Source of the DNA: Sphingobacteriales bacterium
GTDB lineage: Bacteria; Bacteroidota; Bacteroidia; Chitinophagales; Chitinophagaceae
Reading direction: 5' to 3'
DNA length: 64,000 nucleotides
NCBI GenBank assembly: GCA_004144175.1
Contig: SEFT01000008.1
Location: forward strand, 62,001-126,000
The notes under the pieces were generated by a model. It saw only the letters and a program-made list of their open reading frames with translations, was not told the DNA's origin and did not search any database. The translations under genes and the position numbers were made by a program. Of the stretch, positions 58,158-61,391 are shown piece by piece. Each line of letters begins with the position of its first letter. Position 1 is the first letter of the stretch.

Positions 58158-61100
58158 ATGGTGAAAAAAGCTATTTTACTTTTATCTGCGGCATTGAGTT
58201 TGGGAAGTGCGGCGAACGCGCAGTGGTGTATTACAGATGAAATGAACCGGGAGGCGAAAGAACGTCATCCAGAAATAGAGCAATTTGAAAAGAGACTGGA
58301 CCAGGAGTTGTTGAGAATGAAATTGGTACAGTCTAAAACAACTGCTGATGATACGGTAACGCTTCACATTCCGGTAGTTGTACACGTTGTGCACAACTAC
58401 AGTGCATCCAACTATGTTGAAGATAACACGATCTATCAGATGATAGATCAGATCAACGTTGTTTATGCAGGCAAGAACGCCGATCTGGCAGACGTTATAC
58501 CACCGTTCCAAAAATACATTGGTAATCCTAAGATTGTATTTCACTTGGCTACCAAAGATCCATTAGGCCGTCCAAGCAAAGGTATCACCCATCGTTTTTC
58601 TTACCTTACAAATGGTGGAGACGATCAGGCAAAGTTCGACCTGTGGCCTCCGGATTATTATCTTAACATCTGGGTTATCGACAAGATCGGTAGAGGCTTA
58701 GGCGGCGGCGGTGTAGTAGCTGCTTATGCTTATCAGCCTGCTTCAGCTGCGCAAAATCCGTATATCGATGGTATCATGACAGCTGCTCCGTTCCTGCTTG
58801 GTAGCAGCAAAACAATTGAGCACGAATTTGGTCACTATTTTAACCTTGACCACACATGGGGCGGTGGTAACGTGGCAACTGCTTGCGGCGATGACGATGT
58901 AGATGATACCCCTCCTACAAAAGGACACTTTGGCCCTACTGCCAACTGTGATCTTCCTTCTGTTCTTTATGATACTACTTGTACCAATGTATCTAATACC
59001 GCTGCAAAAGTTTTATTGGACAACCCCAATATTCAGGGCAGTAAAGTAAAAGTGAGCAACGAGAACAATCTGAATATCGATTTCGTTTCAAGAACAGGTC
59101 TTACAGTAGATTCTTTGCAGATATATCCTACTACACGTGGCGGTATATTTGATATTGAATTGCAAAAATATAATGGCAGCGGCTTTACTGTTGTAACGAA
59201 AGTTTCTAATAACTCGATCTCTCCTGTTGGTAAACCGGCTTTGTCAGGCACTCCGGTTCTTAACAATGAAACTGCTGATTCCAGCGCTTCTATATCATTT
59301 ACTAATAACAGGCCGATCCGCATCGAGTCTGTAGATATCTATCCAAGCACTATTGGTGATTCTTTCAAGATCATTCTGTACAACAATGCCGACACTATGG
59401 CACTGTACAGAGGCATTACTACTACTAATACGGGTGTTCAGACAGTGCCAGTTGGATTCTTCGTTGCATCTGGTATAAATCAGGGTGCAGGTCGTCCGGC
59501 AAGTAACTACAAGCTTAAAGTTGTTCAGAATCCTGGGTTATACACTGATAACGCAAGTACCCTGGCTAAGGCTGACTCTGCGATAGTGAAACCTGTAATC
59601 GGTAGCGCTATCAGACTCACTAAAGCTACAGACATTACTAACCAGAGGTATAATCTGCTTTACAACTGGCAGGTTCGTTATAGAGGTGTTACTGCTATCG
59701 ATACTGCAGCACAATGGGTACCGCTTATTGATTTTGTATCAGGTACAGATTCTGGCTACAGAATGGTTGTAACGGTTAACCCCGGTCTGAAAACAGACTC
59801 CGTTTCTATTCCTCTTTACACAAAGAATATCCCTTGCGTACTTACAATTAAGGATGACACTACCAAGTCATGGTATAACTTCCTTTACAACTGGCAGGTA
59901 AGATGGGGTTACATTAAGGATTGCATCGACTACCCTGATACTGTAAATACGCAGAACATCATGGACTATGCAAACTGTCCTAAAAACTTCACTAAAGGCC
60001 AGGTTGCACGCATGAGAGCAGCAGCTCAAAGCGCTGTAGCAAACAGAGGTAATCTACTTACAAATGCAACACACTTATTTACAGGTATCCTTGATCCTGC
60101 AACGGGTAAATATGGCGTGAAAGTAGATCTGGCTCCCGTACCTGATTTCTCGGTAGAGAAGGCTTCATCGACTGCATTGAGTGGTTCGCATTATATGTGT
60201 GCTAATGAGGCTGAGTTCAGCTTCCGCAACCGTAGCTGGGGTGATACGATTACTTCCGTTCAATTTGAATTTGCAAATGGTAATCCTGCTACAGCTACAA
60301 GTACAAATGCTGTTGTGAAAACAAAGATCACACAACCGGGATGGGTAAATATTAAACTTACTGCTGTAGGTAACGATCGTAATGCTCCGGGTAAGAGCGC
60401 CCTGATCGAGCGTACTGCTGTATATGCGGCTGATCCTACTAATAAGATCAACCCGATTGCCGGCTACTTCCAGGAGTTTAGCGATGAAAGCGAAAACAAC
60501 AGGTGGCCGATATTTAACTACTACAACAACGCCTTTAAATGGCAGGTTGTAAATAATACAGGTTATTACGATAAATCTGCTATCATGTATTCAGCATATG
60601 ATATTCGTACAGGTCCTTCTGCTATCACTGGTGCTCCAAGTACTTACACTCCGGACCAGGTGCAGCATACTGATGAAGACGACTTCTTTACGCCTCCGTT
60701 CGACCTGAGTGGCATGACCGAAGGTAATTGTAACCTTAACTATATGTACTCTGGTGCTTACCGTTCACAAGATCCAAACGTGATGAAGGATAAGCTGGAG
60801 ATCGCATTCTCTACAGACTGCGGTACTAACTGGAAGGTAATGACTACAAGAGAAAGAGATGGTATTGCTAATAAAGGTAGCTATCCATTGTATCACCTGC
60901 CATCGTGGATGGGAGACTGGGCGCTTGCTAGCATCAATATTCCTGCTGATGCAAGAAAAGAAAAAGTGCTGTTCCGCTTCCGTTATAAGCCAACAGGCGA
61001 CCCTGAATATACTTATACTTCAGGCGGTACCTCTGGCGGATTTACGGTACAGAACTACGGCGTAGGTAACAACTTCTATATCGACCGTATCAACATCAGC

Positions 61101-61391
61101 AACTTCCCGCTGGGTATGAATACAATCGTTGATAACAGTAAGAAAGTGGCTATCGCTCCGAACCCAACTACAGGTAGCTCTTATATCGTGATCCGCAACT
61201 CTGAGAACACAACTGCTCAGGTTCAGGTTACCGATATCACTGGTAAAGTGGTTTATCGTACAGAAGCTAAAATAACTAACGCTGTAGATCGTATCGAAGT
61301 ACCTGCCGCTGTAATTTCAGTAAAAGGTATCTATCTGGTACACATCATCACAGGCAACCAAACATTTACTGAGAAACTGGTTTCTCACTAG
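58158..61391 (+). CDS. T9SS-exported M43 (pappalysin-like) metalloprotease with a split catalytic domain
   Basis: 1077 aa. A signal peptide (ILLLSAALSLGSAANAQ) and pro-like helix precede the M43 domain. Its zinc motif HEFGHYFNLDH is at residues 222-232, and its Met-turn MDY follows only at about residue 602, before CPKNFTKGQVARM. Between Cys275 and Cys589 sits an insert of about 310 residues with duplicated beta-rich units (IYPTTRGG and IYPSTIGD; LLYNWQVRY and FLYNWQVRW). After the protease come a PKD-like domain (about 665-775), a MAM/jelly-roll-like domain (about 785-970) and a T9SS type A sorting domain (PNPTTG, DITGKVVYR, KGIYLVHI, EKLVSH). The product should be secreted or surface-bound. 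An M43 gene without such an insert would be about 60 residues between the two motifs. Confidence 0.9.
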   Translation: MVKKAILLLSAALSLGSAANAQWCITDEMNREAKERHPEIEQFEKRLDQELLRMKLVQSKTTADDTVTLHIPVVVHVVHNYSASNYVEDNTIYQMIDQINVVYAGKNADLADVIPPFQKYIGNPKIVFHLATKDPLGRPSKGITHRFSYLTNGGDDQAKFDLWPPDYYLNIWVIDKIGRGLGGGGVVAAYAYQPASAAQNPYIDGIMTAAPFLLGSSKTIEHEFGHYFNLDHTWGGGNVATACGDDDVDDTPPTKGHFGPTANCDLPSVLYDTTCTNVSNTAAKVLLDNPNIQGSKVKVSNENNLNIDFVSRTGLTVDSLQIYPTTRGGIFDIELQKYNGSGFTVVTKVSNNSISPVGKPALSGTPVLNNETADSSASISFTNNRPIRIESVDIYPSTIGDSFKIILYNNADTMALYRGITTTNTGVQTVPVGFFVASGINQGAGRPASNYKLKVVQNPGLYTDNASTLAKADSAIVKPVIGSAIRLTKATDITNQRYNLLYNWQVRYRGVTAIDTAAQWVPLIDFVSGTDSGYRMVVTVNPGLKTDSVSIPLYTKNIPCVLTIKDDTTKSWYNFLYNWQVRWGYIKDCIDYPDTVNTQNIMDYANCPKNFTKGQVARMRAAAQSAVANRGNLLTNATHLFTGILDPATGKYGVKVDLAPVPDFSVEKASSTALSGSHYMCANEAEFSFRNRSWGDTITSVQFEFANGNPATATSTNAVVKTKITQPGWVNIKLTAVGNDRNAPGKSALIERTAVYAADPTNKINPIAGYFQEFSDESENNRWPIFNYYNNAFKWQVVNNTGYYDKSAIMYSAYDIRTGPSAITGAPSTYTPDQVQHTDEDDFFTPPFDLSGMTEGNCNLNYMYSGAYRSQDPNVMKDKLEIAFSTDCGTNWKVMTTRERDGIANKGSYPLYHLPSWMGDWALASINIPADARKEKVLFRFRYKPTGDPEYTYTSGGTSGGFTVQNYGVGNNFYIDRINISNFPLGMNTIVDNSKKVAIAPNPTTGSSYIVIRNSENTTAQVQVTDITGKVVYRTEAKITNAVDRIEVPAAVISVKGIYLVHIITGNQTFTEKLVSH

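Follow-up and report, generated by a model that had tools for sequence, protein, structure and literature searches.

The window analysed here, a stretch of 64,000 nucleotides from a Sphingobacteriales genome (contig SEFT01000008.1), carries on its forward strand the gene for an M43/pappalysin protease (58158-61391), which we assigned from its open reading frame and profile matches. The reading frame is intact and encodes 1077 amino acids, ordered as an N-terminal signal-like stretch, Cys24, the M43 catalytic domain, further segments of the secreted-protein kind and a T9SS type A sorting domain (residues 999-1075, 61152-61382). The latter scored 51.5 bits with TIGR04183 (cut-off 23), which identifies the protein as T9SS cargo, and the segments between it and the catalytic domain gave a weak match to Reelin_subrepeat-B.

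The catalytic domain matched PF05572 with 67.3 bits (cut-off 23) and contains the extended zinc motif HExxHxx(G/N/D)xxH, here HEFGHYFNLDH (residues 222-232, 58821-58853), in an N-terminal part that runs up to Cys275 (residues 57-275, 58326-58982). The Pfam match falls into two stretches, profile positions 4-118 and 120-150, which lie approximately 320 residues apart in the protein. As the two stretches nearly abut in the profile, the MDY of QNIMDY (residues 602-604, 59961-59969) is the real Met-turn by both Pfam and alignment, a point on which the preliminary description had itself raised a doubt; it is followed by Cys607, as expected from ulilysin and mirolysin, and includes the tyrosine-switch residue Tyr604 (PMC6949598). 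We predict an active enzyme, as the catalytic Glu, the three zinc ligands, Met602 and Tyr604 have been retained. Cys24 (58227-58229), directly after the likely signal peptide in a conserved AQ..C.TDE context, is a candidate cysteine switch comparable to Cys23 of mirolysin (PMC6949598), and occupies an invariant column in 27 of 27 aligned orthologues, insert-bearing and insert-free alike. The best explanation for these features is a secreted zymogen of the lower-pappalysin type.

Four cysteines (C243, C264, C275 and C607) are present and kept in relatives, and their positions would match the two M43 disulfides seen in ulilysin (C250-C277 and C269-C297); similarly, a DDVDDTP segment may correspond to the VDDTP of the ulilysin double calcium site. 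The S1' Asp expected at Met+5 is absent: in MDYANC (59961-59978) this position is Cys607, and MDYxxC is also the pattern of the relatives in the orthologue alignment. Because the subfamily lacks this residue, the preference for Lys/Arg seen in known pappalysins cannot be taken for granted, and judging from the sequence the cleavage preference is probably a different one. The change at Met+5 touches specificity, and neither the fold nor the zinc site.

An insert of 308 residues (276-583, 58983-59906) lies between the zinc motif and the Met-turn, in the stretch that has been named the ZnM loop in PAPP-A (PMC9579167). In the alignment of 27 orthologues, everything between Cys275 (in LYDTTC, 58980-58982), the invariant final core residue ahead of the insert, and GYIK..DYPDT (584 onward) is extra with respect to the insert-free forms. 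Since GYIK (584-587) and DYPDT align with insert-free orthologues, the insert proper comprises residues 276-583, so that the insert of about 310 residues reported in the preliminary description holds, with corrected limits. The long gap reported there also stands, as the zinc-to-Met spacing is 380 residues here (72 if the insert is left out). Of 114 distinct M43 relatives, 110 have a spacing of 57-108, and a class-wide sample of 30 M43 domains gave 52-63. Owing to the insert, the protein therefore falls outside the usual M43 spacing, a range of about 50-110 which is not strictly defining.

It had also been proposed that Cys275 and Cys589 flank the insert as a pair, which is probably wrong. The counterparts of Cys275 are C277 in ulilysin and C271 in mirolysin, whose partners are C250 and C243, respectively (PMC11674741, PMC6949598), and by this correspondence the partner of Cys275 in the window protein would be C243. 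Cys589 (59922-59924) occurs solely along with Cys560 (59835-59837), in the window protein and three g84 relatives, so the likely additional disulfide, probably specific to this clade, is C560-C589 rather than C275-C589.

The insert is composed of two copies of one module. A profile built from single (uninterrupted) insert forms matched it at residues 283-345, 364-508 and 511-586, the two half-module matches scoring 15.7 and 31.9 bits. We assign these to the N-terminal half of a module A (residues 283-345, 59004-59192), a complete module B (364-508, 59247-59681) and the C-terminal half of module A (511-583, 59688-59906), which ends in YNWQVRW. The same profile matched five of the five nested inserts tested as N-terminal half, full copy and C-terminal half, an order also observed in genomes G244 and G292. 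Single modules were found in g90, g13 and genome G331, and two modules in g84 and most of g22. The existence of relatives with an uninterrupted A alone at the same site confirms the nested reading and, as far as the sequences tell, module B occupies a hairpin of module A. The duplicated units seen in the preliminary description are therefore real, but are two nested copies and not a tandem pair. Compared with the uninterrupted G331 module, the outer halves in g22 show 49-53% and 51-56% identity and the inner copy 31-41% and 37-49%, which identifies the outer pair as the host.

In the module tree, the A, B and single modules of g22 group together (94/88), apart from A and B of the window protein and g84 (93/81), and these separate groupings indicate that self-insertion took place at least twice. 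The break point is shifted in g22 relative to the window and g84, and the g22 B copies form one clade (100/98). The G331 gene (L184) carries a single module, yet it falls inside the nested g22 clade in the core tree, suggesting that the inner module was cleanly lost. Single and nested M43 inserts together form one clade with the free-standing modules outside (99/98), which would fit a single entry of the module into M43; in that case the core tree, with at least five changes of insert presence, needs several losses or exchanges.

Structure prediction agreed with the domain assignment. An AF2 model of residues 57-652 had a pLDDT of 72.9, low at the insert stem, and its catalytic part matched mirolysin and ulilysin in Foldseek (E about 1e-13). 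The MAFFT alignment of nested and single forms, input to this model only, misplaces the single modules, and confidence in the insert may therefore be understated. Module B alone, modelled with 37 homologues, reached a pLDDT of 81.7 and gave an all-beta, jelly-roll-like model. Its nearest folds in Foldseek were PHR domains (TM 0.54) and CBM35 (0.41), with a best E of 0.004 and no match below 0.001; matches to viral capsids and tail proteins were set aside as generic jelly-roll similarity, and no kinship was read from them.

Within the order, 139 of 249 genomes had matches to the module profile, the matching proteins being about 500-5000 aa long, and large secreted proteins there also contain the module in free-standing form. 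This bears out the earlier suggestion of a beta-sandwich module embedded in a protease domain; in the large secreted proteins of Bacteroidota, modules of this kind normally stand free. The genome of the window itself has a free-standing copy, in an ORF of 2516 aa (G000:C21:1197-1598), and the 1355-aa ORF L074 (G047) has a module (residues 521-645) outside its M43 domain, where zinc-to-Met spacing is normal. When searched against Pfam, DUF4082 (PF13313) included, the window insert gave no match other than one to Nup88, which we rejected as chance. The modules can be related to DUF4082-like modules only through the free-standing homologue L220 (E 2e-6, 28.2 bits, cut-off 28.4), a marginal relation.

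Across 399 family genomes, with the best two candidates per genome considered, the census listed 99 orthologous genes, 79 strong and unbroken and 20 broken. All 20 were broken in the same loop, around profile position 270-305, where some have the module in nested or single form and the others a PCMD-like domain or an unrelated insert of another kind. A search of 299 family genomes with module B turned up further M43 orthologues in which a homologous insert occupies this site; on the question, raised in the preliminary description, of whether a clade shares the insert, such inserts are present in other M43 clades, including g84, g22, g90 and g13. Two genomes of the window's own genus (G009 and G014) have at the loop a domain of ~200 aa that is weakly PCMD-like (PF13201, E 2.4e-4, 21.3 bits versus a cut-off of 28), and in G026 a domain of ~150 aa that fits no clear family sits in this loop a few residues further on; none of these three inserts matched the module profile. 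The nesting, the homologous inserts in other M43 clades and the unrelated domains in sister species had not been foreseen. Among 198 genomes searched across the class, every one of the strongest M43 domains listed was unbroken, in a list that is biased against split genes. Two M43 relatives (G398:C49:32761-37292 and G440:C1:2265159-2267231) contain in-frame stop codons and are possible pseudogenes.

The window gene and those of 13 compared species from genera g1, g13 and g22, with and without inserts, share a neighbourhood in which ftsE lies downstream of the protease gene, while ccmB/ccmC and glutamate dehydrogenase lie upstream of it, within the reach of the compared flanks; these neighbours were not found beside the g84 and g90 genes compared. 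As the neighbourhood is shared whatever the insert, we regard this as one locus which holds none, a single, a nested, a PCMD-like or another module. Finding a different domain or none at the same spot in relatives suggests that the loop is a socket for exchangeable modules, which are probably substrate-gripping.

The inserts are under purifying selection and about as constrained as the catalytic core: in the only two pairs that were unsaturated at synonymous sites, and could thus be read, insert dN/dS was 0.042 (G173/G292) and 0.058 (G009/G014), compared with 0.029-0.065 for the cores, more distant pairs being saturated. Separately, genome G307 has tandem M43 copies (L186 and L232) which are 87-90% identical in the insert and C-terminal core and 68% identical, with saturated dS, in the N-terminal core, a contrast that suggests gene conversion or recombination moving the insert between paralogues.

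In PAPP-A the ZnM loop extends the lower cleft by ~20 Å, and cleavage of IGFBP-4 depends on several residues of the loop (PMC9579167), so by analogy the insert of the window protein would sit beside the active-site cleft. Mutants in the LNR calcium sites of PAPP-A lose IGFBP-4 cleavage and keep IGFBP-5 cleavage (PMC9579167). Given that the ZnM loop and the LNRs are both needed for one protein substrate, targeting appears the likelier half of the "substrate-targeting or inhibitory" role suggested in the preliminary description. We lean towards the view that the insert is an exchangeable exosite presenting substrate to the cleft. A jelly-roll recognition module would have entered the loop that leads from the third zinc ligand to the Met-turn, directly after the C243-C275 disulfide, and a second copy of the same module would then have entered a hairpin of the first, creating an exosite on the lower cleft wall. 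Lineages could exchange the module at this one locus (none, single, nested, PCMD-like or other) and change substrate while keeping the catalytic machinery.

The main rival to this proposal is that a permissive surface loop tolerates the modules as cargo or spacers, which would neither contact the substrate nor influence catalysis and whose sole contribution would be bulk, stability or surface anchoring. The lack of an insert in many close relatives speaks against an exosite, and most listed orthologues have none; the loop accepts unrelated domains and varies in length even when empty (zinc-to-Met 57-108), and large secreted proteins commonly contain these modules as regular components, where they could be spacers rather than binders. 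Against a mere spacer stand a constraint about equal to that of the catalytic core and the repeated gain in one loop, cleft-bordering in PAPP-A, when no listed orthologue is broken elsewhere, and we hold it to be rather unlikely. The insert could instead be a regulatory lid, an auto-inhibitory module that occludes the cleft until bound, cleaved or moved, as its place on the ZnM loop and the probable C560-C589 disulfide, which would fix its stem in the window/g84 clade, might suggest. The retention of the cysteine-switch-like Cys24 in insert-free and insert-bearing orthologues makes this less likely; in addition, we saw no conserved linker or cleavage site, and insert-free orthologues at the same locus manage without a lid, which leaves this an improbable reading.

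The arrangement of the insert might itself have been misread, being a tandem duplication or the result of halves swapped between copies. The half-module scores are modest, and the nested packing rests on sequence, but a tandem repeat was rejected on the N, N-C, C profile order, which recurs in the five nested inserts as well as in G244 and G292, and on the better match of both outer halves than of the inner ones to the single module; the uninterrupted single modules that g22, g90 and g13 have at this site also oppose a misreading, to which we give very little weight. An assembly chimera or frameshift artefact might be suspected in a draft genome of 93 contigs, but the ORF is intact and homologous nested inserts are in frame in other species; as these genomes are independent, an artefact is already refuted.

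Extending the exosite proposal beyond the window protein, we suggest, tentatively, that in an M43 clade the zinc-to-Met loop serves as a socket for recognition modules, that self-insertion occurred there at least twice and that specificity is set by a module-in-module exosite. Sister species with different inserts at one orthologous locus offer a comparative system for how proteases gain exosites. The nested self-insertion, at least twice and with apparently one clean reversal (G331), is relevant to the spread of beta-sandwich modules, and the design of loop-grafted specificity domains could draw on it.

Inserts into metzincin catalytic domains are known, and the LNRs of PAPP-A and the fibronectin repeats of MMP-2/9 lie elsewhere in the fold; in the literature searched, of which coverage was partial, we found no comparable precedent for a nested insert in the ZnM loop. 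The fibronectin type II repeats of MMP-2 and MMP-9 are, like the window modules, substrate-binding modules (putatively so here) that interrupt a metzincin catalytic domain, but they lie ahead of the zinc helix, have another fold and are arranged in tandem and not nested. Cytophagalysin CPL1 is likewise a secreted Bacteroidota pappalysin with beta-sandwich modules, eight Ig-like ones, all of which are downstream of an uninterrupted catalytic domain (PMC11674741). Ulilysin and mirolysin share with the window protein the zinc motif, the Met-turn, the two disulfides, the tyrosine switch and a prosegment resembling a cysteine switch, but have no insert and carry the S1' Asp at Met+5 (D289 in mirolysin) in place of Cys607. 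The closest precedent within the family is PAPP-A (pappalysin-1), an M43 domain with inserted modules (LNR1-2) that affect substrate choice and a ZnM loop below the cleft (PMC9579167), although its LNRs are small, bind calcium and lie above the cleft, and its ZnM loop has 63 residues and no nesting.
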